A DNA stretch of 64,000 nucleotides, from assembly GCF_030296615.1 (NCBI RefSeq), contig NZ_AP027732.1:3663042-3727041 (forward strand), given 5' to 3'. The number at the start of each line of letters is the position of its first letter. Position 1 is the first letter of the stretch. A model generated the notes under the pieces. That model did not search any database, had not been told where the DNA came from, and was given only the letters and a program-made list of their open reading frames with translations. The DNA is from Frondihabitans sucicola (GTDB taxonomy: Bacteria > Actinomycetota > Actinomycetes > Actinomycetales > Microbacteriaceae). Below are positions 39,123 through 56,810 of this stretch, in pieces. Position numbers and translations under genes: made by a program.

Positions 39123-39167
39123 GCGTCATGCTAGCGCCGGGCGCCGACGGGGGCTCAGGAACGGGCA

Positions 39168-39213
39168 AAAGGCCCTCTGACACGCTCCGAAGACGCGTGA
39201 ACGGAGGGCCTTT
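39168..39213. terminator. Hairpin terminator
   Basis: A 10-bp stem AAAGGCCCTC/GAGGGCCTTT with inner pairing. On the minus strand it follows the gene fragment at 39239-39558 and precedes the polyketide synthase promoter, so it likely belonged to the intact form of that gene. Confidence 0.7.
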
Positions 39214-39238
39214 CTCGCTTCCCACCGTCGAACCGGAA

Positions 39239-42496: not shown

Positions 42497-42593
42497 GGAG
42501 GTGTTCCTTTCACAGGGGCGCGACGATAGAGCCGGCGCAGAATGCACGAGGCATCCCCGCCTGCTTCGTCGCGTGATCGAGAGGGTGGGTTAC

Positions 42594-42995
42594 TTACGGG
42601 CGGCGGTACTCGTCGTCGGTGACGGGCTCGAGCCAGGTCGTCGCGGTCGACGGGTCGTCGGGGATGTCCATCATGACGAGGTGCTCCATGAAGGCGTCCG
42701 GGCTGGCGCCGTGCCAGTGTTCTTCGCCCGGGGCCGTGTAGACGGTCTGGCCGGGGTGGACCTCGAGGATTTCTCCGCCGCGTGCCTGGATCCAGGCGAT
42801 GCCTTCGGTGACGTGGATCGTCTGACCGAGGCCGTGGGAGTGCCAGTTGCTGCGGGCTCCGGGTGAGAAGTGCACTCGTGCGGTGCTCGCGCGCTGACCG
42901 TCGTCTTGAGGAACGCCGATCATGTCGACCCAGACGTCACCGGTGAACTGCGTGGCGGGGTTCTTGGCGGTGGGTTTCATCGGTTGGAGTTTCAT
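42594..42995 (-). CDS. Cupin-domain protein
   Basis: 133 residues. Cupin motif 1 is visible as HFSPGARSNWHSHGLGQTIHV and motif 2 in PGEEHWHGASPDAFMEHLVM (both abbreviated). Metal-binding histidines are present. The ATG overlaps the regulator stop (ATGA). A small oxidoreductase or sensor role with the CMD-family protein is likely. Confidence 0.92.
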   Translation of the reverse strand: MKLQPMKPTAKNPATQFTGDVWVDMIGVPQDDGQRASTARVHFSPGARSNWHSHGLGQTIHVTEGIAWIQARGGEILEVHPGQTVYTAPGEEHWHGASPDAFMEHLVMMDIPDDPSTATTWLEPVTDDEYRRP

Positions 42996-43909
42996 GAGTT
43001 ATTTTCATTCGTGAGGTCGGCCGCCGCGGAGGCGGCGGAAGTGGGCGGCGTCGCTGCCCACGACGCCAGCAGGCTCAGAGCCTCGGCGGTCGGGGTGCCT
43101 GGCGCGGCGGTGTAGATCATGAGGTTGAGGCCGGGGTCGGCGACCAGTTCCGTGCCTTCGAAGATCATGTCCAGCGGCCCGACGAGTGGGTGGATGAAGT
43201 GCTTCATCCCGCTCGCGTGACGGCGGACGTCGTGCACGCCCCAACGGGCACGAAACGCGTCGCTGCGGGTCGACAGCTCGCCGATCAGATCTTGCAGGTC
43301 TTTGTCGTACGGGTCCTTGCCTGCTTCGGTGCGGAGGATCGCAACGGTCTGGTCGGCGGCGATACCCCAGTCGGGGTAGAAGCGGTCGGCGCGGTCGGGG
43401 TCGAGGAAGCAGTGCCGGGCGAGGTTCATGGGCTTGCCGGGCAAGGTCGCCTCGGCACTGTCGTAGAGGTCCGCGTAGACGGCTTTCCCGAGCGCGTTCG
43501 AGGCCAGGATGTCGAGCCGCCCGTTTCGCACGAAGGCGGGGCCTCCCGTGATGGCGTCGAGGATGAACTGCAGGCTCGGACGCACGTTCTGCGCCTTCGC
43601 GGCGCGACGCTTGGAAGAGATCGGTGACGCGTTCGCCGTCTTGGCCAGGTCGAATAGGTGCGCCCGCTCGTCGTCGTTCAGCAGCAGGGCCTGCGCCAGA
43701 GAGTGCAGGACGCCGTCGGAGGCGCCGGCGAGGCTGCCCCGCTCGAGACGGGAGTAGTACTCGACGCTGACACCGGCGAGCAGTGCTACTTCGGTACGCC
43801 GAAGGCCGGGCACGCGCCGGTTCGGCCCGCTCGGCAGCTCTACCTGCGCAGGAGTCACGTTCGCCCTGCGGGTCGTGAGGAACTCGCGCACCTCGTCGGA
43901 ATTGTCCAT
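42992..43909 (-). CDS. XRE-family regulator, MmyB-like
   Basis: 305 residues. The N-terminal helix-turn-helix includes GLRRTEVALLAGVSVEYYSRLERG, listed here by its core VEYYSRLERG. The C-terminal MmyB-type ligand-binding domain contains DPDRADRFYPDW. ATG at 43909 is chosen over an upstream start lacking similarity. It heads the cupin-dehydrogenase-CMD-MFS unit and is divergent from a second MFS pump; palindromes at 43945-43974 and 45390-45404 are its likely targets. Confidence 0.93.
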   Translation of the reverse strand: MDNSDEVREFLTTRRANVTPAQVELPSGPNRRVPGLRRTEVALLAGVSVEYYSRLERGSLAGASDGVLHSLAQALLLNDDERAHLFDLAKTANASPISSKRRAAKAQNVRPSLQFILDAITGGPAFVRNGRLDILASNALGKAVYADLYDSAEATLPGKPMNLARHCFLDPDRADRFYPDWGIAADQTVAILRTEAGKDPYDKDLQDLIGELSTRSDAFRARWGVHDVRRHASGMKHFIHPLVGPLDMIFEGTELVADPGLNLMIYTAAPGTPTAEALSLLASWAATPPTSAASAAADLTNENNS

Positions 43910-43944
43910 GGCTCGAGCGTACGAGCGCGCCGTCGCTGGTGGAA

Positions 43945-43974
43945 TGCCCTGCCAGTACACCCTTCGTCAGGGCA
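43945..43974. promoter_or_regulatory. Likely operator of the MmyB-type regulator
   Basis: TGCCCTG (43945-43951) and CAGGGCA (43968-43974) form an inverted pair in the 99-bp divergent promoter region. The first is part of TGCCCTGCCAGTACA, an imperfect copy of the perfect palindrome at 45390-45404. Confidence 0.5.
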
Positions 43975-44008
43975 CCCTTCCGGGAAAAATCCGGGTCATG
44001 CTGGCGGC

Positions 44009-45385
44009 ATGACTTTCACGACGACGGCTTCGACGACGCGCGCGGGCCGCACCCTGGCGCTTGCGTCGCTTGGGTTCTTCCTTATCACGCTCGACATTCT
44101 CATCGTGAACGTCGCACTGACCAGGATCGGCCGTGACCTCGGCGGCAGCACCTCCGGCCTGCAGTGGGTCATCGACGCCTACACGCTGATGTTCGCCTCG
44201 TTGCTGCTCTTCGCGGGAAACCTCTCCGACCGGATCGGGGCGAAGAGGGCGCTCGGGTGGGGTATCGCGGGGTTTCTTACCGCGTCCATCGGGTGCGCAG
44301 TCGCACCGTTCCTCGGTGTCCTCATCTTTGCCCGTGTCGTGCAGGGCTCGGCGGCCGCGATCATGCTTCCGGCCTCGATGGCGCTCATCCGCGAGGCCTA
44401 CCAGGACCCGAAGGAACGGGCACACGCCCTTGGTATCTGGGCCGTCGGCGGTGCTGTCGCCGGAGCCGTCGGGCCTGTGCTGGGTGGCGCCCTTACCACG
44501 ATCGACTGGCGACTGGTCTTCGCCATCAACCTGCCGGTCTGCGTCGTCATGCTCGTTCTCCTGCGCTCGGTCCAGAAGTCCGCCGCTCGCCCGACCCGAT
44601 TCGACTGGGGCGGCCAGATCGCCGCCCTCGCGACCCTAAGCGGTCTCGTCTTCGGTCTCATCGAAGGTGGCTCTCTCGGGTTCGCCTCTCCCGTGGTGAT
44701 TGGCGCGTTCGCGGTGGCTGCCGTTGGCCTGGTGGCGTTTCTCGCGATTCAAGCGCGTATCCGGAACCCGATGATGCCTTTGCCACTCTTCCGCCCCCGG
44801 GGCATGCGCATCGCGCTGCTCGTCGGCTTCGCCTTCATGGTCGGCAACTTCGGCACCGTCTTCGTGAACAGCCTGTTTTTACAGCAGCACCTCGGCATGT
44901 CGCCCCTCCTCGCGGGCCTCGTGTTCCTGCCGTCCGCGGCTTTCAGCGTCTGCGGCAACATGATCAGCGGCACCCTTGCCAACCGTCATGGCGCCCGCGT
45001 GCCCATCGTCTTCGGCCTGCTCACGATGGTCATGGGTCTCGTCATCCTGATCCTCACGGCCCCGCTCGGGTCTCCGTGGGCGGTCCTCATCGGGTCGATC
45101 TTCACCGGAGCCGGCGGCTCCGTGGCCATGCCGCCCGTCACCTCCGTCGTCCTCGCCAGCGTCCCAGCCGAACGGTCCGGCACGGCCAGTGCCGTCTTAA
45201 ACACCTTCCGCCAGGTCGGCGGCGCCGTAGCCATCGCCGTCTTCGGCGTCCTCATCGCCAACCGGACGCACTTCGTCAGCGGCGCGCAAACCAGCTTCAT
45301 CGTCGCGGGAGCAGTCATCCTCGTAGCCGCGGTCGCCGCGATCTTCATCCGACCGCCGGTCGAGAGCACCGCAGCGGTCGCGTGA
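44009..45385 (+). CDS. MFS transporter, DHA2 (14-helix) family
   Basis: 458 residues, about 14 hydrophobic helices. The motif LDILIVNVALTRIGRDLG in helix 1, GNLSDRIGAKR and GAVAGAVGPVLGG are typical of the EmrB/QacA drug:H+ antiporters. It is divergent from the MmyB-type regulator and probably controlled by it. The ATG is at 44009. Confidence 0.94.
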   Translation: MTFTTTASTTRAGRTLALASLGFFLITLDILIVNVALTRIGRDLGGSTSGLQWVIDAYTLMFASLLLFAGNLSDRIGAKRALGWGIAGFLTASIGCAVAPFLGVLIFARVVQGSAAAIMLPASMALIREAYQDPKERAHALGIWAVGGAVAGAVGPVLGGALTTIDWRLVFAINLPVCVVMLVLLRSVQKSAARPTRFDWGGQIAALATLSGLVFGLIEGGSLGFASPVVIGAFAVAAVGLVAFLAIQARIRNPMMPLPLFRPRGMRIALLVGFAFMVGNFGTVFVNSLFLQQHLGMSPLLAGLVFLPSAAFSVCGNMISGTLANRHGARVPIVFGLLTMVMGLVILILTAPLGSPWAVLIGSIFTGAGGSVAMPPVTSVVLASVPAERSGTASAVLNTFRQVGGAVAIAVFGVLIANRTHFVSGAQTSFIVAGAVILVAAVAAIFIRPPVESTAAVA

Positions 45386-45389
45386 CGGG

Positions 45390-45404
45390 TGCCCTGGCAG
45401 GGCA
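45390..45404. promoter_or_regulatory. Perfect 15-bp palindrome after the DHA2 gene
   Basis: TGCCCTGGCAGGGCA lies 4 bp after the stop codon and matches the half-sites in the divergent promoter region. It may be a second operator or a short terminator stem. Confidence 0.5.
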
Positions 45405-45757
45405 TCCCCGTCAGCAAGCCCACGGGGTTCGTTTGAAGTCAGACAGATCGAGCGCTCCGTGGTGCTGGGGATGGACGTCGCCTTCACGATCGAGGCAATC
45501 GGACCCGATCGACCCGCCGACTCTGACCTGACTGTCGGTGGCGCCGGCAATGGTGTGCGGGCTCCTCCTGTTGGGACTTCCCGTAAGCACGCTCGTTTTC
45601 GCTGCCCTTGGGGCCGCTACCGGCCTGCTGGAGGCCGCAACGCCCTGTCTGCACGCCGCTGACGCCGAACCGGCTCGACAGCCTCGCTCGTCATCGCACT
45701 CGAGTCGTTCTTGGACAACTCTGAACACCTCCACGATCGAGGTGTTGCGACGACCAG

Positions 45758-46090
45758 TTGAATCCGCCCTCGCGCGGCTTCACCGGTCCTTCCATCGCCG
45801 TTGTCCGGCGACCAGACCGGACGGAGCCACCCGCCAACGAAGCCGTCGTAGTCGACGGTGCCAACATGGCGTCGGAGATGTTGCTGGGCCCGCTGCGCGT
45901 CATTCAAGTCGAGCACCGTATCGAGCGGCTTCACTTCGCAGCGCTCGTCGGCCTCGCCACCGATGACGGCGACTGGGAGCGCGACGACCCTCAGGAGACC
46001 CACCGCATCGCAGATGACTTCCAGCTGTGCGTCGAAGCCGAAGCCGTTGTCGTGACCGGCCAGATCATGGAGCGGCGCCACCGCGCTTGA
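45758..46090 (+). CDS. Hypothetical small protein, weak
   Basis: 110 residues from TTG with a plausible globular stretch (NEAVVVDGANMASEMLLGPL, VEHRIERLHFAALVGLATDD). No family is recognised, no ribosome-binding site is clear, and the opposite strand is also open. It may be coding or a remnant. Confidence 0.3.
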   Translation: MNPPSRGFTGPSIAVVRRPDRTEPPANEAVVVDGANMASEMLLGPLRVIQVEHRIERLHFAALVGLATDDGDWERDDPQETHRIADDFQLCVEAEAVVVTGQIMERRHRA

Positions 46091-46120
46091 TCCGCGCGCG
46101 TTCTTCGACCGCCCGTCAAC

Positions 46121-46165
46121 GACAAGACCCCTTTCACCCTCACGGGTGTCGGGGGTCTGTCTTTT
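46121..46165 (+). terminator. Rho-independent-type terminator
   Basis: GACAAGACCCC pairs with GGGGTCTGTC around an inner stem CACCC/GGGTG, followed by CTTTTC on the plus strand. It lies between the weak frame at 45758-46090 and the convergent doc gene. Confidence 0.7.
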
Positions 46166-46190
46166 CGCCAGACCCGCGAGGCGGACTCGT

Positions 46191-46571
46191 TCAGGAGGCG
46201 AACGACTCCAGCGCTCGCGCAATGTCGTCTACCTCAAGGGCACCGGTTGCGGCGTCGACCACGAAGTCGTACGCCGCGTCGACGTCGAAGCCCGGATCAA
46301 GCGTCACGCCGTTGACACCGAGGAACACCCACGCCGCCGCCCACGCCGTGCGCTTGTTGCCGTCGACGAGAGCGTGATTGCGTGCCAACGAGTGCAGCAA
46401 CGCGGCGGCCTTCAGCCAGAGGTCCGCATACGCGTCGATGCCGAAGACGCTCGTGCGCGGCCGAGCCACCGCGGCGTCGAGAAGCCCGAAGTCGCGGACG
46501 GCCAATGTGCCACCGAAGGCCGCCGAGCCAGCGGTCAGCACATCGTCGCGGTCAAGGAAGTACGTCGTCAC
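46191..46571 (-). CDS. doc: Doc-like Fic-fold toxin
   Basis: 126 residues. The Fic/Doc core reads NHALVDGNKRTAWAAA, close to the HxFx(D/N)(A/G)NKR signature; the histidine, aspartate and NKR are kept. Doc toxins phosphorylate EF-Tu in known cases. The ATG overlaps the antitoxin stop (ATGA), the standard antitoxin-first order. Confidence 0.92.
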   Translation of the reverse strand: MTTYFLDRDDVLTAGSAAFGGTLAVRDFGLLDAAVARPRTSVFGIDAYADLWLKAAALLHSLARNHALVDGNKRTAWAAAWVFLGVNGVTLDPGFDVDAAYDFVVDAATGALEVDDIARALESFAS

Positions 46572-46759
46572 GCGAGACGTGCGTTCAGCTCCGCGGACGT
46601 AGCCGCGACCTGCTGCGCCAGCTGAGCCACCAGAGCCTTGCGATTCCGCGCGGCGCTCAGGGCCTGGTCGTGCACGTAGGACTTCAGGGATGTCTCAGCC
46701 GAAGCTGTGCGGATCTCTTCGAGCTCGGCTTCTGTGAACGTGACGTTGAGCGAAGGCAT
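46568..46759 (-). CDS. Antitoxin of the Doc pair
   Basis: 63 residues starting MPSLNVTFTEAELEEIRTA, with a ribbon-helix-helix-like N-terminus rather than a classical Phd. The C-terminal helix (LVAQLAQQVAATSAEL) would wrap the toxin. A TAGACT box (46766-46771) lies 6 nt before the ATG, so the mRNA is probably leaderless, and a palindromic operator overlaps the promoter. Confidence 0.85.
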   Translation of the reverse strand: MPSLNVTFTEAELEEIRTASAETSLKSYVHDQALSAARNRKALVAQLAQQVAATSAELNARLA

Positions 46760-46778
46760 GACAGGAGTCTAGAACGCT

Positions 46779-46796
46779 GGTACCTAATTTGGTACC
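46779..46796. promoter_or_regulatory. Likely autoregulatory operator of the toxin-antitoxin pair
   Basis: Two GGTACC palindromes flank the AT-rich hexamer TAATTT, giving an 18-bp near-symmetric site over the spacer/-35 region of the predicted promoter. Confidence 0.6.
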
Positions 46797-46871
46797 GCGG
46801 GGACGGTACTCAGAGCTCGACCAGCCCCCTTCACCCTCACGGGGGCGCGGCTCTTATCTCAGCACGCCCGG

Positions 46872-47118
46872 CTAGACGAGCCGCTTCGTCTGCACAGGAA
46901 CCTCGTCGCCGTCTTCGAACTCGCGGAAGCTCACGACGCGCACTGCGCCGTCGCTCCTATCGGCGAGATCCTCCAGCGCCTCGAACACCTCAGCGTCGAT
47001 GCTCGCCGCCACCACCGTGAGGACCTGCCGCTAGTTGGCGTCGCCGGGTGCTTCACGCCCGAACATGGAGCCGAAGAGTTCGTCGAGCGTGAAGTCGTCG
47101 CGGTAGCCGGCGAAGATG
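46872..47118 (-). pseudogene. Decayed gene fragment next to the satellite
   Basis: The minus strand reads IFAGYRDDFTLDELFGSMFG...GDAN, an in-frame TAG at 47031-47033, then VVAASIDAEVFEALEDLADR...VQTKRLV up to a TAG at 46872. Both halves look like protein but no start is present upstream of 47118. A separate 43-residue protein from an internal GTG is possible. No family is recognised. Confidence 0.4.
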
Positions 47119-47221
47119 CTCCGGAGTCAGCGGTTTGAGGAGTCATCGATGAGCGCACCAGAGCTTTCACGAAGGCTTGAGCGTCGTTCTGAGCGACAAA
47201 GACAGAGCATCTCAACAAGAG

Positions 47222-47261
47222 AAGGCCCTCCGCCTGGAGAAACCCCAGGTCAGAGGGCCTT
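47222..47261. terminator. Hairpin beside a decayed tRNA 3'-end-like sequence
   Basis: AAGGCCCTC/GAGGGCCTT with inner pairing CCTGG/CCAGG. It is followed at about 47265-47285 by a sequence resembling the tRNA-Met 3' end (TGTAGCGAAAGCGGGACTCG), suggesting an older attachment scar. Confidence 0.55.
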
Positions 47262-47391
47262 ACATGTAGCGAAAGCGGGACTCGACTCCCCACCGAGCCG
47301 CCGCACCATGCCTCCGCTTCGCTCCGGCAAGCCGCGGACTGCCCGGCGTGGGCCCACGAGCGGCTTCTCGATCCGCCCACCCGACAGACGA

Positions 47392-47427
47392 CGAAACGGC
47401 CCGGCCCTGGAGGGCCGAGCCGTTTCG
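47392..47427 (-). terminator. Original terminator of tRNA-Met, now displaced
   Basis: CGAAACGGC...GCCGTTTCG with GC-rich inner pairing sits directly beyond the tRNA 3'-end copy at 47433. It would have ended the tRNA-Met transcript before the element inserted. Confidence 0.75.
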
Positions 47428-47432
47428 ACGTC

Positions 47433-47473
47433 TGTAGCGAGGGCGGGACTCGAACCCGCGACACCACGATTAT
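47433..47473. repeat. Attachment site, left copy (41-bp direct repeat)
   Basis: 41 bp identical to 56735-56775, containing the 3' part of tRNA-Met from the anticodon arm to the discriminator base. It is followed by unrelated sequence (CGGCGCTCC). Confidence 0.95.
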
Positions 47474-47618
47474 CGGCGCTCCTATATCGGGAGTTTCCGC
47501 TGACTGCCCGCACCTACCGCTTACGTCTGGATCAAGGGAATGCTGTTTCCTAGGTGGTCCAGCTTGTTCCTCTGAATCTGCGGGGTTTATGCGGGTTTTT
47601 CTGAGGGTCGCAAGACGG

Positions 47619-48077
47619 TTAGCCTCGTTCGACTTCGGCGCGAATCTCACGAACGACTTGATTGACCGCGAGCTGCGTCTCGATCGCGTCCTTAATATAG
47701 GCCGGATTGTCGGGAGACTCGGGGGCGTCGAGTTTGGCCTGTAGGCCCGCGTCGTCGTGGGCAATGCGTCGATCCCACTGCCGCGGGAGTCGGTCTCGAC
47801 CAATCAGGCCGATAAGTGTGAGGGCCTCTGCGCCGAGGCGTTTGCTCTCGGCCGGGTCGGTGCTACCTCCCCGGTTATTGTTCTCCAGCAGCCCGGCAAG
47901 AGCGTCCAGCTCGAACATGAGGCGCGCCTGACTCAGTGCGGAAGCCCGATCCTTGACGGCAATGTCGCGGCTGTTCTTGCGCTCGCGGCGCGAGACCTCC
48001 AGAGCCACAATCGACGCCCCGACGGCTACGACGACGGCTATGGCCTGAATCCAGAGAGTGACGTCTTGATTAGTCAT
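47619..48077 (-). CDS. Hypothetical membrane-anchored protein (satellite cargo)
   Basis: 152 residues. One N-terminal helix (WIQAIAVVVAVGASIVAL) is followed by a charged, probably helical cytoplasmic part (SRRERKNSRDIAVKDRASAL...). Not assigned to a family. Its start lies back to back with a second membrane-protein gene, and both sit in the accessory zone next to attL where satellites commonly keep phage-interference genes. That role is inferred only from position. Confidence 0.6.
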   Translation of the reverse strand: MTNQDVTLWIQAIAVVVAVGASIVALEVSRRERKNSRDIAVKDRASALSQARLMFELDALAGLLENNNRGGSTDPAESKRLGAEALTLIGLIGRDRLPRQWDRRIAHDDAGLQAKLDAPESPDNPAYIKDAIETQLAVNQVVREIRAEVERG

Positions 48078-48132
48078 GGGCACACCCTATGAGATGCCAG
48101 CGCGGCGAGCGTCGAACTGTCATTATCGGCTA

Positions 48133-48546
48133 GTGGCCTTCCAGTTCATCCTCATTGCCCTTGCGACCGGGGGTCTAGTTCTTCCCGTTACGGGTGCCGT
48201 GCGCGCCTACCATTCTGGCCGGAGAGCCATTAAGAAAGCTCGCCACGACTCTGAGCGTATCGCCGCGATCCGAGAGAGTTGGGCGAATGAGCAAGGGCAA
48301 GAGCGTGCCCGCCTCGGCCAGGATTACGACGGCGAGGTCGTGAATGAAAAATATGCTCGGCTCTTCTTGGCGGAGGAGTTGGTAGTACCGAATTGGGACT
48401 ATTCGTCTCGCAACGCGGCGGGCGACCTCACGATTGTCCGCGTGCTGGAACTGATCGTCGAGTCGAATCTGAGCAACGTCGGTCTCATCTTCCTCGGGGC
48501 AGTCTGCTCATATGTGGCGACCCTCCTCGCGATTCTCTACTCATGA
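48133..48546 (+). CDS. Hypothetical membrane protein (satellite cargo)
   Basis: 137 residues from GTG 48133; an ATG at 48076 would overlap the divergent gene. There is an N-terminal helix (FQFILIALATGGLVLPVTGAV), a charged central part (IAAIRESWANEQGQERARLG) and a C-terminal helix (NVGLIFLGAVCSYVATLLAIL). No family recognised. Divergent from the other membrane protein, it may work with it. Confidence 0.55.
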   Translation: MAFQFILIALATGGLVLPVTGAVRAYHSGRRAIKKARHDSERIAAIRESWANEQGQERARLGQDYDGEVVNEKYARLFLAEELVVPNWDYSSRNAAGDLTIVRVLELIVESNLSNVGLIFLGAVCSYVATLLAILYS

Positions 48547-48585
48547 ACGCCGACAACGTGTCAGTCGGGGAGTTCTTCTCTAGGG

Positions 48586-49167
48586 TCAGACGCCCTCGCC
48601 GTGAGTGGCCGCGTCAATGACGACCGTGAGCAGTTCGTATGCCTCATCGAGTGCCGCCGAGAGCGTGCGGAAGTCGAGAGTGATGCTCGGGACCGTGAGT
48701 ACCCCGGCGTAGCGGAATCCAGTGCCGCCGTTATCGAGGGCAGCGAGTAACTTCAGGGTCTCGGCGACGGGCTCGGGGATGACCTCCAGCCTCAAGGCAG
48801 CGATGTGCTCGTCGTGCTCTGCGATTAGGCCCGCCATGTTGTGGCCCAGCTTGAACTGGAGACGCTTGTCGACGGTCTTACGCCAGAGTCTCTCGTCGGT
48901 CTCGCCCTGCTCGCGTCGCAACGTTGCGAGGTCTCGAATGTTTGCCTTGATCTGGATTTCGATCGCTTGTCGCCACACGAACAGAAACGGCAGGAGCATG
49001 ACGTCGTCCCATGGTTCGTCGTTGAAGGAGGCTTCGAGGCGATGGGCAGCATCGGCGTAGCCGGTACCTACGAGCCGTTCGCTCGTCCAATGCTCGCGGT
49101 ACTGGATTTGGTTCGCGAGGCCAGCGTTCGCGTGCGCGGTGAAGAGTGTCTCGTCGGGTTTGCTCAC
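48586..49167 (-). CDS. Hypothetical helical protein (satellite cargo)
   Basis: 193 residues, mostly helical, soluble. A central segment (LPFLFVWRQAIEIQIKANIR, then LQFKLGHNMAGLIAEHDEHI) resembles the layout of HEPN-like proteins, but no decisive RX4-6H motif is present. It is convergent with the membrane-protein gene by 40 bp. A defence role is possible from its position in the element, not from sequence. Confidence 0.6.
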   Translation of the reverse strand: MSKPDETLFTAHANAGLANQIQYREHWTSERLVGTGYADAAHRLEASFNDEPWDDVMLLPFLFVWRQAIEIQIKANIRDLATLRREQGETDERLWRKTVDKRLQFKLGHNMAGLIAEHDEHIAALRLEVIPEPVAETLKLLAALDNGGTGFRYAGVLTVPSITLDFRTLSAALDEAYELLTVVIDAATHGEGV

Positions 49168-49269
49168 GTCCCAATGATGTCTCTCAGTACGCCGAAACGC
49201 GTAGCAAACACGTTCGGGCTGAAATAGCTATCCATCGGACGACCGCGGCCGACGCGATAGCGTCGGGTC

Positions 49270-49536
49270 ATGGTCCTGACTGATTCGCTCGTCGCCCAGC
49301 TCAGCGTCGAGGCGCGCGTAACGTGTGATCCGACGGGCCGTGATGGAGTCGTTGCGGTTGCAGGCGATGTGCATGTCGGGACTTTGGCGGCGATCGTGTT
49401 GGACCACGCGGCCGAGGTGGTTATGGCGGCTCGGTACTTGGGCACGGTGGCCGCGCCGGGTCGTGCTGCGACACCGCACGAAATCGCGGCGGAGTTGCGT
49501 CGTCAGGCCGACGTCTACCGCGTCGGCATTGAATGA
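49270..49536 (+). CDS. Hypothetical small protein (satellite cargo)
   Basis: 88 residues (VLDHAAEVVMAARYLGTVA, ATPHEIAAELRRQADVYRVG). Composition is protein-like and the frame is preceded by a divergent promoter space. No family recognised. Confidence 0.5.
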   Translation: MVLTDSLVAQLSVEARVTCDPTGRDGVVAVAGDVHVGTLAAIVLDHAAEVVMAARYLGTVAAPGRAATPHEIAAELRRQADVYRVGIE

Positions 49537-49552
49537 GTCGGTTTGGTGCCCG

Positions 49553-50167
49553 TTAGCGGGTGGCGATAGCGGCTGTCAGGGCGCTGAGTTCTGCGAGGAA
49601 CGTGGCACGGGCGTCGACTTCCCAGCGGAGAGCCGTGGCGAGGCTTGTGCGCCACTCTGCGAGGTCGGTAGAGGTGCTGTTGAGGTAGCGGTCGAGGTCA
49701 GCGTGGACGCGGGCGACGTGGGCCTCGACGGTGGCGGCGAAGACGTGCCGCCCGCTGGTGTCGATGACGACGGCCCGCCCGCTGACGGTGACGGTGGTGT
49801 CGAATCCGCCGATGTAGTGCAGCGAGGGGCGGCTCGTGAGCAGGCCCGGCGATCCGGTGAAGGGCACGGTCGTGAGGACGCGCATGCCGGGCACGGGTGT
49901 GCTGCGGCGCTCGCCCGGCGACGGGTTAGCGAGGCGTTCGACGACGGTGGCCTCATCAGCTCTCGTCGTCGTCGACTCCCAATCGAAGACGGGCACGACA
50001 AGGCCCGCCTGCGCGGCGAGGTCGGCGGCGGGGTCGCGTGGCGTGCCGTCCTCTAGCGGTGCCCACGCTCGGGCGGGCAGGTTCGCGGCGGAGGTGAGAA
50101 GCTTGCCGGTGGTGTCGTCCAGGACGTGGGCGAGGGGCGGGCCAGTGAAGAGGCGGCGAGGGCTCAT
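49553..50167 (-). CDS. Hypothetical phage-type protein
   Basis: 204 residues, soluble, with no recognised domain (VFDWESTTTRADEATVVERL; a C-terminal helical part WRTSLATALRWEVDARATFL). It follows the zinc-ribbon gene by 10 bp on the same strand and lies downstream of the capsid gene, so a late structural or packaging role is possible. Confidence 0.55.
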   Translation of the reverse strand: MSPRRLFTGPPLAHVLDDTTGKLLTSAANLPARAWAPLEDGTPRDPAADLAAQAGLVVPVFDWESTTTRADEATVVERLANPSPGERRSTPVPGMRVLTTVPFTGSPGLLTSRPSLHYIGGFDTTVTVSGRAVVIDTSGRHVFAATVEAHVARVHADLDRYLNSTSTDLAEWRTSLATALRWEVDARATFLAELSALTAAIATR

Positions 50168-50177
50168 GAGGGGCCTT

Positions 50178-50429
50178 TCAGAGCGGATCGGTGGGCGGCG
50201 TGATTCGTTTGCGGAGCGCTATCAGGGCAGCTCTGGCCCGGTCGCGCTCCGCGACCGTCCAGGACGTGCTCCAGTCGCGCTCTTGGCGCTCCGCCCTGGC
50301 AACGGCGGAGACGGCACGACGGAGGCTCAATTCCGCTGTCTTGCGGCAACGCGTGGAGCAGTAGCGGCGGGGCCGGCCGATTCGAGCGGCCGTCTGGATC
50401 GGGGTGTTGCAAGTCAGGCAGATGGTCAT
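50178..50429 (-). CDS. Small zinc-ribbon protein
   Basis: 83 residues. Cysteines in CLTCNTPI and RYCSTRCRKTAE form a likely C-x2-C...C-x3-C zinc site. Such small DNA-binding proteins are common in actinophages and satellites. GGGGAGAA lies directly before the ATG, and TATACAT (minus strand, around 50491-50497) upstream may be its -10 box. Confidence 0.65.
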   Translation of the reverse strand: MTICLTCNTPIQTAARIGRPRRYCSTRCRKTAELSLRRAVSAVARAERQERDWSTSWTVAERDRARAALIALRKRITPPTDPL

Positions 50430-50853
50430 TTCTCCCCTGTTTCAAGTCCCAGACTCTCGCGCGGAGAGAGATGCAGACCGCGCAGCGATCTATGTATAGG
50501 TACCGGGGGCGGGTGGGGCGGCCCCGTGCGTGGTTCCCGTGGTGGTCCTGGCCTTGCTGTGGTCGGCGTGTAGCTGTGTGCGGTTCGACGATGCCCGCCC
50601 GCGGGTGTCAGGGCGGGTTCCTGTCGCCTGTGTGAGGCGGTGGTGACCTCGGCGCTGGGGTCGGTCGTGGTGTGGGTGACCGGGTATCCGCTGACCAACG
50701 ACTAAGTGAGGGCGGATACCCGGTCCGAGTGTCCGTCACCCTGGGACCGGAAGGCTCCCGTGGTGACGGACGGCGGGTGTCGTTCACATCCCACCCAGGA
50801 TGTGAGACCGACTTGCGGCTGACCAGGCCACCCGCGGTTTGGTGCAGGGGTGG
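50430..50853. other. Gene-free region with stacked hairpins
   Basis: No convincing gene. Stems are GACCGGGTATCCGC with its complement (50678-50691/50712-50725), GTCCGTCACC/GGTGACGGAC (50731-50740/50762-50771) and TCACATCC/GGATGTGA (50784-50791/50798-50805). A fourth stem, GCGGCT/AGCCGC around 50814-50860, runs into the capsid gene end. It may be a terminator cluster, structured RNA or packaging site. Confidence 0.7.
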
Positions 50854-51696
50854 TTAGCCGCCTGCCTTGATCTTGATAATCGCCTCGGGCTGGGGGAAGC
50901 CGAAGCCGACGCGGGCGACGCCGCGGATGGCGACGCGGTCGGAGGTGAAGAGTACGGAACTGTCGATCGTGATCGAGGTGTCCTCACGCAGGATCGTGAA
51001 GGCGCGCGACTTGGGGATGCCCCACGCGGTACCAGGGAGGACGAACGGCGACACGATGTAGGGCACGCCGTGGATGGTTCGGAGGGTGCCGTTGTTGGCC
51101 GTAGGCGACAGGAGAGGCTGGTTGGACCCGTCCGACGACTTCATCTTGGCCAGGGCGGTACCGGTCTGCGGGTCGACCACGAACACGTCGATGGCGACGC
51201 CGAGGCCGTCCGCGATGGACATGGCGTCCACGTACGGGTCAAGGCTCGCTGTCGGGTCGGCCACGAGGATCGAGTGAGCGGCGGACTCCAGGCCTCCCTG
51301 CTGCACGGGGCTGTCGACGGGTGCCGCTCCGAAGAACGCGAGGTCGATCTTCCGGGCGATGTCGCGGCCGATGCCGTCACCGACGGCTTGGAGAGCCTGC
51401 GGGTCGGAGTCGTTGGCCAGCTCGTTGCTCGTGCTCGACAGGGCTGCGATTTTGGTGGGGGTGACGATGACCTCACCACCGGTGGCCTCGCTGAGCGGAA
51501 TCTCCTGCGACTCAGCGACCCACGCGGCGGACGGGTCCTGGGTGATCTTGGGGATGCGGTAGGTAACGCCCTTGGTGGTGACGACCGTCGTTACGGCGAA
51601 GGCCTTGGACTCGGCAGTGATCGGCTCGATGAGCAGCTCACCGGTCTCGTTGATGCCGATGAAGGACTTGAGACCGGCGTTGTTGTTGAAAGGCAA
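50854..51696 (-). CDS. HK97-type phage major capsid protein
   Basis: 280 residues. The pattern VTTKGVTYRIPK, AAWVAESQEIPLSEATGGEV (shortened) and TPTKIAALSSTSNELANDSD matches the HK97-fold capsid family N-arm and spine helix. The C-terminal part has the expected VPYIVSPFVLPG and RVAIRGVARVGFG strands. TTG at 51696 has GGAG upstream and gives MPFNNNAGLKSF; an ATG at 51750 would add a poor extension. It is the only clear structural phage gene in the element. Confidence 0.88.
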   Translation of the reverse strand: MPFNNNAGLKSFIGINETGELLIEPITAESKAFAVTTVVTTKGVTYRIPKITQDPSAAWVAESQEIPLSEATGGEVIVTPTKIAALSSTSNELANDSDPQALQAVGDGIGRDIARKIDLAFFGAAPVDSPVQQGGLESAAHSILVADPTASLDPYVDAMSIADGLGVAIDVFVVDPQTGTALAKMKSSDGSNQPLLSPTANNGTLRTIHGVPYIVSPFVLPGTAWGIPKSRAFTILREDTSITIDSSVLFTSDRVAIRGVARVGFGFPQPEAIIKIKAGG

Positions 51697-51872
51697 TGGG
51701 AACTCCAGGAGAGGGGTGAGGGATGTGGGGGTGTGCTCCGCGCGGCGCATGCTGCGGCGGGTGGCCCTCAGGGCCTCTCTGCTGGCGGTCGTCGAGTCAC
51801 AGACTCAAGACGATCGGGCGTCCCGAGATTAACACACGGGACGCCCGAAAGGGTTGCTACGAGGGTGCTCGA

Positions 51873-52418
51873 CTACGGCTGTCGGGGATTCAGTGCGTTG
51901 CCCCAGGTGGGCGCACCCGTAGCCATGTTGGCCAGGCCGCCGCGCGGTGCCATCGAGGCCGTCGCTTGCGCGGCCGACATGCCCGTGTATCGGGCGGGCT
52001 TGAGAAGGTAGTCGCGGTCTTCGGTCCCAGCGTCGATAAAGTCGGCCAGGGCCGTCTTGTCGAGGTTGCCTTCGTCGTCGTAGAACTGGTCGGGCGTGCC
52101 CTTGAGGAACTCCCACAGGTCGGCGGTCTTGTTGAGCCGCTTGGGGGCGGAGCCGTCCCCTCGGAGGTCGGTCTCCGAGTCGAGGAGGTTCTCGACGAGC
52201 TGGCGTCGGTCGTTGCTCCGCTGCGCCAGGAGGCTGTCGCGCTCGGCCTCGACATCGCGGAGCTGTGTGCGGCGCGCTGCGGCCTCGGCGTTCGGGTTCT
52301 TCTGGCGTCGTTCTTTCTCGGGGGTCTCGTCCGGCTCCGGGACTGTGGTAGCCGCTGCGGTGCCCTCGGGCTCCGTGTCGTCGACTCCGGGCTGAGGGGT
52401 GGGTGTGGCGGTGGTCAT
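51873..52418 (-). CDS. Putative scaffold-like phage protein
   Basis: 181 residues. An acidic, Thr/Pro-rich N-terminus is followed by a charged coiled-coil-like segment (AAARRTQLRDVEAERDSLLA) and a Gly/Ala-rich C-terminus. This layout and the position directly before the capsid gene suit a scaffolding protein. ATG 52418 has GGAAG upstream; ATG 52430 is the alternative. Confidence 0.6.
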   Translation of the reverse strand: MTTATPTPQPGVDDTEPEGTAAATTVPEPDETPEKERRQKNPNAEAAARRTQLRDVEAERDSLLAQRSNDRRQLVENLLDSETDLRGDGSAPKRLNKTADLWEFLKGTPDQFYDDEGNLDKTALADFIDAGTEDRDYLLKPARYTGMSAAQATASMAPRGGLANMATGAPTWGNALNPRQP

Positions 52419-52533
52419 GGTGTCTTCCATTTCAAGTCTGGGGTGATGTGCCGCGCTCGGGCGGCTGTTCGGGCGAACGTCGGGCGAAATATTTTTCCCG
52501 CTGAGATGTCTTCCGGGGAGCTGGTAAATCAGG

Positions 52534-52827
52534 TCATGCGGCGGGCGGGGCGAGGGTCAGGTCGCACGTGGGGCACGTGTCCCGGCCCTCTGCCTCGACG
52601 ACGGGGTGGAGCGGGAATCCGCAGGATACGCAGACAGTCCACTCGTAGGGGTCTGCGAGGAGGTCGGCGCGCCAGGCTGACACGCAGTAGGCGCACACAC
52701 CCAGACGGTCTGTCGTCTGCCCGCGGTGCTCCAGGCAAGAGACCGCTGGTCGGTCGTCGTCCAGTGAGAGCACCCACCGGTAGGGGCGACCGGGCTCCCG
52801 CGTTGGCCAGTCGAGGAGAGCGCCCAT
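52534..52827 (-). CDS. Zinc-ribbon protein (satellite)
   Basis: 97 residues with three cysteine pairs (CAYC, CVSCG, CPTC), probably two zinc sites. The ATG overlaps the stop of the replication-type gene (ATGA). Function unknown; may bind DNA. Confidence 0.65.
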   Translation of the reverse strand: MGALLDWPTREPGRPYRWVLSLDDDRPAVSCLEHRGQTTDRLGVCAYCVSAWRADLLADPYEWTVCVSCGFPLHPVVEAEGRDTCPTCDLTLAPPAA

Positions 52828-53422
52828 CAAGCGGTCCGCCTCAACTGCACTTTGTTGCCGACCTTCTCCACGTGCCTCTCCACCACGGGAACGAGCCCGT
52901 CGGGGTCGGCTACACGGACTGTCCCTCGCGGCGCATCCGGGGGTGCCGTGTCTGCTCCCCGCTCTGGAGAAACCTCCTTCGTAAAGGCTTGACCTGGCCT
53001 GTCCCTTTCGGTTGGCGAATCGCTTGCCGACTCGCTTACCGATTTGCTTTCCTTGCGGCCAGGCGATTCGGTTAGCGATTCGCTTGCGATGTCCTGCGCC
53101 TGCTCGCGGGGCGGTCGTCCCCCTTCTTGCCGTTGCGGGTGTTCGCGCGCTGTTGTTTGAGGACGTCCTCCTTGAGGCGCTGGTAGGTGGCGTGGTGGAC
53201 GACCGCATACGTGTCGCCGTCGTCCTCCCACCAACCCGCTTCGAGCAGTTCCTCGACGGCCTCGGGACGTTTAGCGAACCGGGCCACGTCCTCTTTGGGG
53301 ATCACCATGTCGAGGAGTTTGCGGTTGGACCAGATGAGAGCCTCGGTGTGGAGTCGGAAGGCGGCATCGGACAACGACCAGTTGTCGTCTCCGAAGTCGT
53401 CAGAAAGCTTGGTCCAGGTCAC
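52827..53422 (-). CDS. Phage-type replication/DNA-binding protein (frameshifted)
   Basis: 198 residues when repaired. It starts VTWTKLSDDFGDDNWSLSD, like winged-helix replication proteins of actinophages and integrative elements, followed by LWSNRK-type and EAGWWEDDGDTYAVVHH segments. The break is at GGGG 53108-53111; one added base joins KGDDRPR to EQAQDIASES. GTG at 53422 is backed by GGAGGGGGAG. The Ser/Glu-rich tail may be a linker. Confidence 0.65.
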
Positions 53423-53570
53423 GAACTCCCCCTCCACGGCGACGACGTGCCACGCGCCGCCGGACAGGCCGGGGTGTGACCTCGGCGCGCTGGGCCTGCT
53501 CGCAGTCGTCACAGCGGGGCGGGTAAAGCTCGCCCACATGCTCTTCACAGCGCGCCTCGGGCTCTGCCAC
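53400..53570 (-). CDS. Small Cys/His protein, possible zinc binder
   Basis: 56 residues from GTG 53570 (ARCEEHVGELYPPRCDDCEQ). CxxH and CxxC suggest a zinc site. It overlaps the upstream stop (TAGTG). If one C were missing in the CCCC near 53470, as elsewhere in this window, it would end at the GTGA of the next gene. Confidence 0.4.
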   Translation of the reverse strand: MAEPEARCEEHVGELYPPRCDDCEQAQRAEVTPRPVRRRVARRRRGGGVRDLDQAF

Positions 53571-54343
53571 TAGCTCCACCCGAGCTTCGGGCGGGCTCCC
53601 GTGCCGTTGCTAAGAGCGCTGCGGTGCTCAACCTCCTGGACGTTCCGCAGGAGTGCCACGGCGAGCAGACGGCCCTCCGACGGGAGAAGGCTCACCACGT
53701 CGTTCCGTGTCTGCATCAGAGTGACGATCGTGTCGGTTTCCGTGGGGTGTCGACACGAGAGGATGTTGACGCTCGACGTGGAGAGCTGCGCGCTGACTCG
53801 ATTGCGTGGGAGGGGCACGGGCTGACGGGTGCTCTCGCCCCGGATGGCCTCGTTCAGTCCACGAACCTGCATGGACTCGTCGAGCATGGCGACTACGAGC
53901 GCTTCGGTCTCGTCTGGGGCCTGATCCTCGGGAGCCTCGGTGTGGGTCCGCCACTCTCCGGAGCCGACGCTGTGCGACTGGACGGACCAGGTTCCGTCGT
54001 CGGCGGTCGTGCCCTCGGTCGAGTGCAGGGGCTCATGTGGGCCCTCGTGGAACCTCGTCCCGCCGATGCAGCCGGGCTTGGAACAGGGTATCGATAGGAC
54101 ACTCGCGGTTGCGCTAGTACTGTCGTGTATTGAGGTCATGACTTCTTCCTGGCAGTTGGAGTTCTGGTCTTCGCCTCCGCGGTGTTCAAGCACCTCGGGG
54201 GCATCCTTGTCTTCGGCCTGTTGGGCATGCTGCGAACCGGCCATGAGCGCCGCCCACGGAGACGTAGCCGTGACGACGTGGCCGCACGTGCATGTGAGCA
54301 CAGCGCCCTCTAAGACCGCGATCTCGTGCTCGTCGCCGCTCAT
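53570..54343 (-). CDS. Hypothetical Cys-rich protein (satellite)
   Basis: 257 residues. The first part has CTCGHVVTATSPWAALMAG, the middle CSKPGCIGGTRFHEGPHEP (Cys/His pairs), and the C-terminal part is helical with LLPSEGRLLAVALLRNVQEV. No family recognised. The ATG overlaps the excisionase-like stop (ATGA). Confidence 0.6.
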   Translation of the reverse strand: MSGDEHEIAVLEGAVLTCTCGHVVTATSPWAALMAGSQHAQQAEDKDAPEVLEHRGGEDQNSNCQEEVMTSIHDSTSATASVLSIPCSKPGCIGGTRFHEGPHEPLHSTEGTTADDGTWSVQSHSVGSGEWRTHTEAPEDQAPDETEALVVAMLDESMQVRGLNEAIRGESTRQPVPLPRNRVSAQLSTSSVNILSCRHPTETDTIVTLMQTRNDVVSLLPSEGRLLAVALLRNVQEVEHRSALSNGTGARPKLGWS

Positions 54344-54573
54344 GCCGAGGCAGCCATCTGCTGAGCGAGCCACTCCAGAACATCGGCCTTCGCGTAGCGA
54401 ACGGCAGTTCCCCCGAGTTTTGTGATGCGCGGGCCTTTGCCCTCGACTGCCCATCGGGCAAGTGTCTGGACGGCGATTCCGGTGTACTCGCTGAGTTGCG
54501 AGCGATCGGGCCAGTCGGGAAGGTCCTCGACGTGGCGGATCGGCGGGCTCTTAGCCCCGGTGACGAGCGTCAT
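54340..54573 (-). CDS. Excisionase-like helix-turn-helix protein
   Basis: 77 residues. The core LSEYTGIAVQTLARWAVEGK, then ITKLGGTAVRYAKADVLEWL, is the MerR-like HTH_17 pattern of Xis/AlpA proteins that direct excision. It is the first gene of the leftward transcript, divergent from the repressor, as in temperate phages. Confidence 0.85.
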   Translation of the reverse strand: MTLVTGAKSPPIRHVEDLPDWPDRSQLSEYTGIAVQTLARWAVEGKGPRITKLGGTAVRYAKADVLEWLAQQMAASA

Positions 54574-54595
54574 ATTTCTCCCTCTGCGGCTGCCT

Positions 54596-54667
54596 CACCG
54601 TGAAGCAGTTGGCCGCAAAAGGAAGCTAGCACACGTTGAGGGAAGTTGTCGCACCGTGATGCAATTG
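54596..54667. promoter_or_regulatory. Repressor operator pair in the divergent promoter region
   Basis: CACCGTGAAGCAGTTG (54596-54611) and CACCGTGATGCAATTG (54652-54667) are direct repeats, 14 of 16 matching, between the excisionase-like and repressor genes. One lies near each start, as expected for a lysis-lysogeny-type switch. Confidence 0.65.
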
Positions 54668-54684
54668 AAAGGTAAGGTGTTCGC

Positions 54685-55521
54685 ATGCCCCGTGAGCCCC
54701 GCGAGTATTCTCAAACCCCTTTGGGCCGTCGACTGGCCGAGTTCCGCATCAGGCGTCGATTTTCCGCCGCGGGCCTAGCGAAGAAAATCGACGATCCAAC
54801 CATCACGCGCGCCGTGATAACGAACATCGAGACTGGACGTAAGGCTGACCCTCCCTTGTCGGAGGTCATGAAGATTTGCGACGCGCTCGGAATCTCACCC
54901 CTTGCGCTCATGATCGACACCTCCTCCCCCTGGGCTCCACTCGATACGCCCGGTTTAAGTACCGGACGGCTTAGGGAGGTAAGCGCCATCGAGTACGCTC
55001 GCGCCGCGACGCTCTACGGTCCGAGCGGGTTTAGAAATGGCGGTTTCAGCAGCGACTTGAGCAGCTTCCTGGAGGCTCTAATCGAGTCGGAAGTTCAGGT
55101 CGAGCGCGCTAAATTCATTTCGAACCTTCTCATGGGTGGCGAACCTCTCGACCAGGAGGCCTCCTATTCAGGCGAGACCGAGGCCTACGAACCGTGGTCG
55201 GTCAGCGCCCCCGATGTGTCCGAAGAAGGCCTTGAGGAAGCACAAGAGACCGTAGTAGCCGCTTACCGCACAGCCCTTGCGGCGCGAGAACAAGACGCTA
55301 GGTGGCCCGGGCAAATGTCGAAGCTCAGTCGACTTTCGCCCCGGTTTGAGCGGCGTCTCGACGAGGTCAGACGCGTGGTCGTCAACATCATCGCCGCCAA
55401 TGCGGAGATCGACTACGGCCAAGATGGTCGGCGCAGTCTCCGAGGACGCTTTGCGACGCCGCCGCTTGACCCCAAAACAGGACTGGCAATCCGACCGGCG
55501 ATTGGAGAGCTGGATGGCTAG
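54685..55521 (+). CDS. XRE-family repressor of the element
   Basis: 278 residues. The N-terminal helix-turn-helix (LGRRLAEFRIRRRFSAAGLA, TRAVITNIETGRKADPPLSE) is followed by a long helical part without protease motifs, so it is not a LexA/CI-type autocleaving repressor. AAAGGTAAGG lies before the ATG. It overlaps the integrase gene by 8 bp and probably holds the leftward operon silent. Confidence 0.85.
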   Translation: MPREPREYSQTPLGRRLAEFRIRRRFSAAGLAKKIDDPTITRAVITNIETGRKADPPLSEVMKICDALGISPLALMIDTSSPWAPLDTPGLSTGRLREVSAIEYARAATLYGPSGFRNGGFSSDLSSFLEALIESEVQVERAKFISNLLMGGEPLDQEASYSGETEAYEPWSVSAPDVSEEGLEEAQETVVAAYRTALAAREQDARWPGQMSKLSRLSPRFERRLDEVRRVVVNIIAANAEIDYGQDGRRSLRGRFATPPLDPKTGLAIRPAIGELDG

Positions 55522-56643
55522 GCCCCGCACACCATTGTCGGCGCACGGCACAATCTTGGTGCAGCAGCTCGCGCCCGAGCGCTTTCGGGCTCGTGCCCGC
55601 TACCGCTTTGACGACGGGAGTTTGCGTCAGGTTGAGAGGACCGCTGAAACGGGCCCGAAGGCGCGGCGGGCTCTCCAAGAGGCCATGACCAAACTCGATC
55701 TGTCTGCACGCGGGGAGATAAAGAGGGAGACCCGGCTCTCCGATCTGGCCGTTCGATTCCTCGACTCCAAATCCAGCCGGGCTCCCCGCACCGTCGAGAC
55801 GTACCGCCAGACCATTCGGCACCTGATCATCCCGGCTATTGGCGACCTCGGCGTCCATGAGGCGACGACACAGCGCCTCGACGCTTTCATCCGGGCAGTG
55901 ACCGAGAAGAACGGACCGGGTGCGGCCAAGGCCTGCCGCGCCGTCCTCAGCGGCATGCTTGGCTTGGCGGCCCGAGCGGACGCGGTTCGGGTCAACCCCG
56001 TGCGCGAGGTGGGACACATCGCGCGGCTGGGGGCGGGGCGGAAGCTATCCCCCTCGACGTGCTGCCGAAGCTCATCTCTGCCGTGAAGCTCGACGAGAGA
56101 CTCGAGGAACTCGATCAGGCAGACCTCATCATTTTCCTGGCCAACACCGGCTGCCGAGTCGGTGAGGTCTGCGGACTGCGCTGGGATGCTCTCGATCTCG
56201 CGAAAGGGACCGCCTCAATCCGGGCAAATGTGGTGCGGGCGACGGGCGTGGGGCTGATCATCCAGGACCATCCCAAAACGAAGGCGGGGGTCAGGACCAT
56301 AGCCCTTCCCTCGCCCCTGCTTGCTGTCCTCAGGCTGCGCGACAAACGGTCGCCGCACACTGATCATGATCTCGTTTTTCCGACCGTGCTGGGCCACGTG
56401 AGGGACCCACGGAACACGGCGAGGGACTGGCGTGAAGCCCGTGGGCGTCTCGGGTTCCCTGACGTCACGACACACAGCTTTCGCAAGACGGTAGCCACCG
56501 CTCTTGACCAGGCGGGCCTCACTGCACGGGAAATTGCGGAGTACCTCGGCCACGAGAATCCCTCTCTGACCCAAGACGTGTACATGAGCAAGAACACGGG
56601 CGGCAAGAGAGCCGCCGTCGCCCTGGCTGCGATCACTGGCTGA
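55514..56643 (+). CDS. int: Tyrosine-recombinase integrase (frameshifted)
   Basis: 376 residues when repaired. It has an N-terminal arm-binding part, a SAM-like core-binding domain (TVETYRQTIRHLIIPAIGDLG, cut), then a catalytic domain with R in NTGCRVGEVCGLRW, H-x-x-R in THSFRKTVAT, H in YLGHENPS and the tyrosine in DVYMSKN. The break is in the G-rich stretch 56029-56038; one added G restores HIARLGAG...KAIPLDVLPKL. If the break is real, the element could not excise by itself. The gene ends 91 bp before attR. Confidence 0.9.
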
Positions 56644-56697
56644 TTTCAAAGTGCGGGGTTTACGCGGGGCTCGATGGCTCATATCTCGTCGGAAGTA

Positions 56698-56732
56698 CAA
56701 AAAGGCCCGGAGATCATTGATCTTCCGGGCCT
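56698..56732 (-). terminator. Terminator supplied by the element to tRNA-Met
   Basis: AGGCCCGGA/TCCGGGCCT followed by TTTTT on the minus strand, directly after the tRNA-Met 3' end. It replaces the original terminator now at 47392-47427. Confidence 0.85.
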
Positions 56733-56734
56733 GT

Positions 56735-56775
56735 TGTAGCGAGGGCGGGACTCGAACCCGCGACACCACGATTAT
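56735..56775. repeat. Attachment site, right copy (41-bp direct repeat)
   Basis: Identical to 47433-47473; this copy restores the intact tRNA-Met. Confidence 0.95.
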
Positions 56776-56810
56776 GAGCCGTGTGCTCTAACCAACTGAG
56801 CTACCCCGCC
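56737..56810 (-). tRNA. tRNA-Met (CAT)
   Basis: 74 nt with a full cloverleaf; the loop CTCATAA gives CAT. The acceptor begins GG and pairs through to position 72 (G-U), unlike an initiator, so elongator Met is likely; tRNA-Ile2 cannot be excluded. Its 3' half is the integration site. Confidence 0.95.

Follow-up and report, generated by a model that had tools for sequence, protein, structure and literature searches.

Introduction

The 64,000-nt stretch of the Frondihabitans sucicola genome analyzed here (contig NZ_AP027732.1, positions 3,663,042 to 3,727,041; hereafter, the window) carries at positions 47433–56775 a 9,343-bp element inserted at a tRNA-Met gene, and the question is what kind of mobile element has a capsid gene and a scaffold-like gene but no recognizable portal, terminase, or tail gene. 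A first-pass annotation, made by a model from the letters of the sequence, proposed a capsid-carrying phage-inducible island that builds its own shell and borrows the rest from a helper phage. We consider it likely that the element is an integrated phage satellite building its own small head, on the basis of its precise insertion at tRNA-Met, its genes for control, excision, and replication, its scaffold-like gene and gene for an HK97-fold capsid, the lack of recognizable portal, terminase, and tail genes, and a family of like-sized relatives.

Results

Insertion at tRNA-Met and gene order

The element is bounded by direct repeats exact over 41 bp: the left attachment (att) repeat, at the junction of element and chromosome, lies at 47433–47473, and the right one, within the 3′ half of the tRNA-Met gene, at 56735–56775. 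The gene itself, tRNA-Met(cat) at 56736–56810 on the minus strand (assigned by ARAGORN and the Rfam tRNA family), stays intact. We searched the six other genomes available for the genus, and in all six the tRNA-Met site is uninterrupted, with the 41-bp sequence matching at 41/41 positions in four genomes, 40/41 in one, and 39/41 in one. In one of these relatives (L111), the sequence corresponding to the left flank continues directly into tRNA-Met (82% over 209 bp), and a capsid match was found in one of the seven genus genomes, namely that of the window alone. The integration with precise att repeats, which the first-pass annotation had claimed, is thus borne out. A third copy of the repeat at 47265, with 61% identity, was taken as chance.

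Within these borders the repressor and the integrase genes lie on the plus strand, and the remaining main genes are read away from them on the minus strand in the order excisionase, replication initiation protein (Rep), cysteine-rich protein, scaffold-like protein, capsid, small protein, a gene that we call G204, and accessory genes to the left end. The tyrosine integrase (55514–56643, plus) is split over two frames (55514–56086 and 56059–56643, PHROG integrase E-values 1.1e-15 and 1.7e-37), its start at 55514 being our reading of a tblastn alignment. It is followed inward by a Cro/CI-type repressor (54685–55521, plus; HTH_31 6.2e-9, HTH_3 1.2e-7) and an excisionase or AlpA-like helix-turn-helix protein (54340–54573, minus; HTH_17 3.2e-8, PHROG excisionase 5.5e-8). 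Rep (52827–53422, minus; PHROG replication initiation 1.9e-12) is also split over two frames, both halves resembling, by eye and with the C-terminus included, the Rep of the related locus L037; the start at 53422 is our reading. The four functions assigned at first pass, including the replication-type protein, are therefore confirmed by family matches, with the correction that integrase and Rep are each divided between two frames.

Capsid and scaffold-like protein

Three libraries and a predicted structure identify the product of 50854–51750 (minus; 298 amino acids as called, relatives beginning about 20 residues later) as an HK97-fold major capsid protein. The family matches are PHROG 8e-35, Pfam Phage_capsid 3.4e-26, and TIGR01554 of NCBIfam 2.2e-26, and an AlphaFold2 model built with 20 sequences (predicted local distance difference test, pLDDT, 81) found by Foldseek, among its best PDB folds, HK97 Head II (E 1.1e-15) and the capsid of the Staphylococcus aureus pathogenicity island (SaPI) SaPI1 (6.7e-15). 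The capsid is only 20–47% identical to those of relatives in a 20-row set, yet the reading frame has no internal stop at all 26 places of the family search and at 36 of the 37 places of the order search, which argues that the gene has been kept by selection.

The scaffold-like protein (51873–52430, minus) has a PHROG head scaffolding match of only E 0.039, and we assign its identity according to position and conservation. A profile with 12 members as seeds matches 32 of the 38 loci that we compared, that is, the 12 seeds and 20 of the 26 others, and in 29 of these 32 the gene is on the strand of the capsid gene and immediately before it; the annotated scaffolds of two phages occupy the same position relative to the capsid. 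The suggestion of a scaffold-like gene accordingly stands with respect to its homologues beside the capsid, and is weak with respect to its own profile match.

Absence of recognizable packaging and tail genes

We scanned 18 open reading frames (ORFs) of the element in PHROGs, 18 in Pfam, and 7 in NCBIfam, and none of them matched a portal, large terminase, protease, connector, or tail family; local profiles for portal, terminase, and connector, run over all six frames of the element, also found none. A small-terminase family matched the excisionase ORF at E 0.097, far weaker than the 5.5e-8 for excisionase, and we took this as a shared helix-turn-helix and rejected the candidate. An HNH family match for an 83-aa ORF was weak (E 0.0023, PHROGs). 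The largest gene called by codon use and without assignment has 204 aa, and a 294-aa ORF (53570–54454) has no match in PHROGs or Pfam. In three relatives, portals have 429–442 aa and large terminases (TerL) 483–487 aa, or 249 + 222 aa when split; the element lacks the space for a portal and a TerL together. A gene set for making a particle alone is thus lacking as far as packaging, portal, and tail genes can be recognized by sequence, and this fits a phage satellite and not an intact prophage. The first-pass annotation had proposed that its idea should be given up if a portal, terminase, or tail gene was found in the element or if the capsid was not of the HK97 fold; no such gene was recognized, and the capsid has the predicted fold.

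Relatives of similar size in other genomes

The capsid of the window matches 26 of 398 genomes of the family at E ≤ 1e-3, and a 10-row capsid profile at E ≤ 1e-20 matches 31 of 396 genomes of the order and 10 of 396 of the phylum, the own genome being included in each count. For comparison we used 38 loci: the window, 15 family loci (the best of the 25 non-own family genomes, leaving out the 10 weaker ones), 20 stretches from the order search (of 36 non-own places, one further place, in G083, being the same as L032, and none taken from the phylum search), one Microbacterium metagenome locus, and the phage record Alyssa1. A direct repeat brackets the capsid in 26 of these loci, 22 at tRNA genes, two (L028 and L071) at what we read as putative glutamine synthetase genes, and two elsewhere (L082 and L088); the other 12 are whole contigs or records or have arbitrary borders. 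The 26 repeat-bounded elements have a mean length of 9,212 bp (standard deviation 865, range 6,530–10,956), and this narrow size suggests a fixed small head. The element in the window is not a lone relic, judging from the capsid lineage common to these 38 loci; the first-pass annotation had proposed to look for the same gene order in relatives without terminase, and relatives alike in size and gene order were found, no TerL being detected in most of the loci.

We tallied the modules with local profiles that were built from the members themselves. The scaffold and capsid occur without any of the listed extra parts in 16 of the 38 loci, and only the capsid was detected in three (L030, L080, and L087). 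The remaining loci add further parts: the G204 module in four, TerL and portal in four (L032, L033, L035, and L088), TerL and a small terminase (TerS) without portal in three (L025, L069, and L070), a tape measure protein in four (that of Alyssa1 by annotation), TerS only in three, and an adaptor only in one, so that a portal was detected in four loci and TerL in seven. PHROGs support the TerL of L025, the TerS of L029, the portal of L032, and the adaptor of L027; the tape measures of L028, L029, and L037 are backed by many tape-measure families, the single best family for L028 and L037 being phrog_971, which is labelled endolysin.

Tape measure genes stand beside scaffold and capsid in L028 (6661–8850), L029 (11364–14450), L037 (6578–8608), and L002 (8355–10310). 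The tape measure of Alyssa1 has 651 residues versus 742 in the related protein of Blinn1, and that of L037 has 676 versus 1,206 in Curtobacterium phage Elener; the shorter proteins may give shorter tails. In L025 and L070, TerL is divided into two genes (249 and 222–228 aa) and TerS is present, with no portal by the local profile, as also in L069.

Another check was a PHROG scan of 20 further large ORFs: 15 from the 16 loci with plain scaffold and capsid (part of their ORFs), four from the G204 loci, and one from a capsid-alone locus. Most of those with a match are primases, helicases, and regulators. Five had no match (475 aa in L072, 537 aa in L078, 446 aa in L082, 360 aa in L075, and 189 aa in L024), and because of these some relatives may have a portal or motor of an unfamiliar kind. 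One ORF of L082 gave a weak portal match (E 1.9e-5), ranked below a NUDIX match (1.2e-5).

A scan of IMG/VR with the capsids of three relatives gave one close match (L130) and three distant ones (L131–L133), and the same scan with the capsid of the window found nothing. The L130 contig (1–13549) holds two related units in tandem with a spacing of about 8.8–9.1 kb; each has a capsid gene and, in our reading, a replication-initiator-like and an excisionase-like gene, and the arrangement looks plasmid-like or like an actinomycete integrative and conjugative element. L085 (1–9087) has a 95-base terminal repeat giving an apparent circle of 8,992 bp with scaffold, capsid, and HNH genes and no recognized integrase; the genome that it comes from has a further two loci with a capsid of this lineage. 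At the accessory end of L023, an ORF pair (5877–6904) looks to us like a toxin-antitoxin pair, its larger ORF matching an unnamed PHROG at 2.2e-63.

Relatives deposited as phages

The best matches of the window capsid among phage records are twelve records of about 11 kb from Mycolicibacterium aichiense (OR387110–OR387121), with 33–35% identity. In Alyssa1, the one of the twelve that we examined, a scaffold homologue is present, no portal or large terminase is annotated, and the first gene, of 134 aa, is annotated as terminase. Some 22 bases from its start and 32 from its end are found again in records with different adjoining bases, the two motifs standing side by side in some of the records. 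These shared end motifs look like a cos site, a pattern that suggests that the relatives travel in particles. No paper on these records was found in the open-licence literature searched.

G204 and one capsid clade

G204 (49553–50167, minus) is located downstream of the capsid. When 41 capsids were placed in a maximum-likelihood tree, those of the window, L023, L038, and L024 grouped as one clade (98/97), and a profile search finds G204 in all four rows of this clade and in none of the 34 other element rows; a weak blastp match in L083 (E 0.002) was not repeated by the profile search. The same tree puts one phage capsid (L128) inside the set of element rows, on a branch that is long and marked as uncertain. 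In L023 and L024, G204 is the gene right behind the capsid; in the window and L038, at least one small ORF comes between the two. It matches the candidate phage-defence family PDC-S54 of PADLOC at E 1.3e-13 over profile positions 5–198 of 410, that is, only the first half and not the full-length protein of about 410 aa. PDC-S54 was matched at E ≤ 1e-6 in 7 of 376 order genomes, this one included, and in L119 and L120 a full-length gene adjoins genes that we read as type I restriction-modification. In L122, an ORF after the PDC-S54 gene was first read as a phage capsid and then rejected, since neither Pfam nor the local capsid profile supported it. Searching solved structures by sequence yielded no useful match for G204; among phage records neither it nor the element had a match, and among plasmids the element had none.

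G204 may serve this lineage as a building part, for example in the docking of the shell, or may interfere with phages. The full-length genes beside restriction-like genes would fit ordinary defence cargo only, and this may be its role, yet G204 tracks one capsid clade.

Other features of the element and its surroundings

A small cysteine-rich, zinc-finger-like protein follows Rep (52534–52830, minus), with 65% and 60% identity over 91–97 residues to the sequence that comes behind Rep in L037 and L032, respectively. Between the capsid gene and G204 lies a small cysteine-containing protein with weak HNH and zinc-finger matches (50178–50429, minus; PHROG E 0.001–0.08). Toward the left end there are an accessory protein without match in PHROGs, Pfam, PADLOC, or NCBIfam (48586–49167, minus), a second one whose N-terminus looks membrane-like to us (47619–48077, minus), and a possible third, also membrane-like in our reading and with an uncertain start (ORF at 48076–48546, plus); the last two have no significant match in PHROGs, Pfam, or PADLOC.

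An element-borne, terminator-like hairpin with a U run (56694–56734, minus; fold −22.4 kcal/mol, z −5.8) adjoins the tRNA, and a hairpin on the far side (47376–47432; −41.4 kcal/mol, z −6.2) is probably the former terminator of tRNA-Met. Both come from folding, and a terminator pattern scan listed neither. Outside the element, about 8 kb (39130–47260) separate the conserved gene at 37944–39122 from the tRNA-Met site, where the genus relatives L106 and L110 have about 0.2–1 kb; the contents include a transporter resembling the major facilitator superfamily and a Fic-domain gene (46191–46571).

Discussion

Proposed life cycle and alternative explanations

On induction by or with a helper phage, or on infection by one, the element would excise and replicate by its own initiator; its scaffold and capsid would assemble a small shell on the portal of the helper. 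The helper terminase would pack the 9.3-kb genome into this shell, and the particle would be completed by connectors and tails of the helper. A wider proposal, which we regard as possible but doubtful, is that these elements form an undescribed actinobacterial satellite lineage whose only widely shared virion module is a scaffold and a capsid, which would dock to the portal and motor of another virus. Sister lineages would add tailored parts: an adaptor, a terminase in the absence of a portal, or a tape measure short enough to shorten the helper-built tail. In the lineage of the window this part would be G204, the gene that goes with a single capsid clade and resembles half of a candidate phage-defence protein.

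Several points weigh against a satellite with its own head. The element is known here from its sequence, from which we infer induction, excision, and particles. Limited searches of this genome (Phage_capsid, PhageMin_Tail, and terminase) revealed no helper prophage: the single Phage_capsid match is the element itself, PhageMin_Tail has no match, and elsewhere there is one weak terminase-like match (E 5.5e-4). Genome-wide PHROG searches for TerL and portal are not counted as negative evidence, because they missed the clear TerL and portal genes of L032 and L033. The scaffold-like protein has the weak family match mentioned above, and its family profile does not match the annotated scaffolds of the two phages. 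A pattern scan found no promoter-like site, the G204 model is of middling quality (pLDDT 72) without a PDB match at E ≤ 0.001, and integrase and Rep, as assembled, have one frame change each, at C5 runs near 56050 and 53120.

The frame changes, the missing helper, and the three loci where only the capsid was detected would all suit a decayed prophage that lost its tail and packaging genes and kept capsid and scaffold by chance, an explanation that we think unlikely. By our count, two of ten neighboring conserved genes, compared with six relatives, are broken in the same manner in the window: 36043–37142, which runs through in L106, L109, L110, and L111, and 32829–33931, which runs through in L110. 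The breaks of these two chromosomal genes sit at C4 runs. Each of the four breaks has a C4 or C5 run no more than 8 nt away, whereas 14% of window positions are so near a C or G run of at least 4, and the assembly is 92% complete in 2 contigs. Assembly errors at homopolymers are therefore the likelier source, although the frame breaks, read from the assembled sequence, may also be true mutations. Furthermore, independent losses would not yield a narrow size and the same kept pair across many host families. This narrow size also fits a packaging limit, and sister elements carry building parts (TerS, TerL, or tape measure); both observations speak against a capsid and scaffold that poison or divert helper assembly instead of packaging the satellite. 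We give little credence to such poisoning, which would nevertheless agree with the lack of a recognizable own portal or motor and with the resemblance of G204 to half of PDC-S54, whose full-length members stand beside restriction-like genes in L119 and L120. Very unlikely, in our judgment, is a complete capsid-forming phage-inducible chromosomal island (cf-PICI) with portal and terminase too divergent for recognition. Four relatives do have TerL and portal, and the genome searches that missed clear cases indicate that such genes can be overlooked; but the largest unassigned gene has 204 aa and the 294-aa ORF is matchless, against portals of 429–442 aa and TerL proteins of 483–487 or 249 + 222 aa in the three relatives.

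Comparison with known systems

Known satellites either reshape the shell of the helper or, as cf-PICIs, bring a whole head and packaging set. An element that supplies no more than shell and scaffold has to match its shell to the portal and motor of another virus, and the specificity of this match is testable. The relatives, some of which add one or two parts, lend themselves as a ready-made series to the question of which virion components a parasite has to own, and a satellite that carries its own tape measure would be expected to yield hybrid particles whose tails are shorter.

SaPIs and canonical PICIs have an integrase, a divergent repressor, genes for excision and replication, and a small size, and they reshape helper capsids. 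The element resembles SaPIs in all these genes and in size, and differs in that the capsid gene is its own. Alyssa1 is similar in size, with a scaffold homologue and a capsid at the identity given above for the 12-record set; its own features are a serine integrase, small terminase, adaptor, stopper, and tape measure, and it was deposited as a phage.

By definition, cf-PICIs encode their own capsid, portal, protease, connectors, terminases, and HNH endonuclease (PMC10690885). The element shares with them its own capsid gene, integrase, and regulators, and has no recognized portal, head maturation protease, connectors, or set of large and small terminases with HNH. Because cf-PICIs so described encode portal, protease, and terminase, the element falls outside their strict definition, and compared with them it would need to borrow far more than tails. 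The idea of a capsid-carrying phage-inducible island therefore survives in part, for the own capsid, the scaffold-like gene, and the like-sized relatives, with phage inducibility as a prediction, and not in the strict sense. MulchRoom and MiniFlayer, satellites of Streptomyces phages, are described in the same source as encoding portal and both terminase subunits, without recognizable primases (PMC10690885). They are likewise actinobacterial with scaffold and capsid genes; in contrast, the element in the window lacks portal and terminases and has a replication initiator.

Closest are the candidate PICIs of Mycobacterium, including phiRv1 and phiRv2, which PMC10654092 defines by integration machinery and a major capsid gene, some having scaffold, terminase, or replication genes. 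By this definition the element has an integrase (with one frame break), att repeats, empty sites in relatives, and a major capsid gene. As for the remark at first pass that such elements are poorly described in Microbacteriaceae, we found no account of them in the open-licence literature, a scope outside which most subscription papers and all bioRxiv preprints fall. Compared with the Mycobacterium candidates, the element and its relatives occur in other host families and have a shared core of scaffold and capsid, a conserved size, and lineage-specific extra parts, G204 in the lineage of the window. Candidate PICIs with integrase and capsid were thus already known, and what is new here is the host family, the smaller virion module, and the lineage-specific fourth gene.

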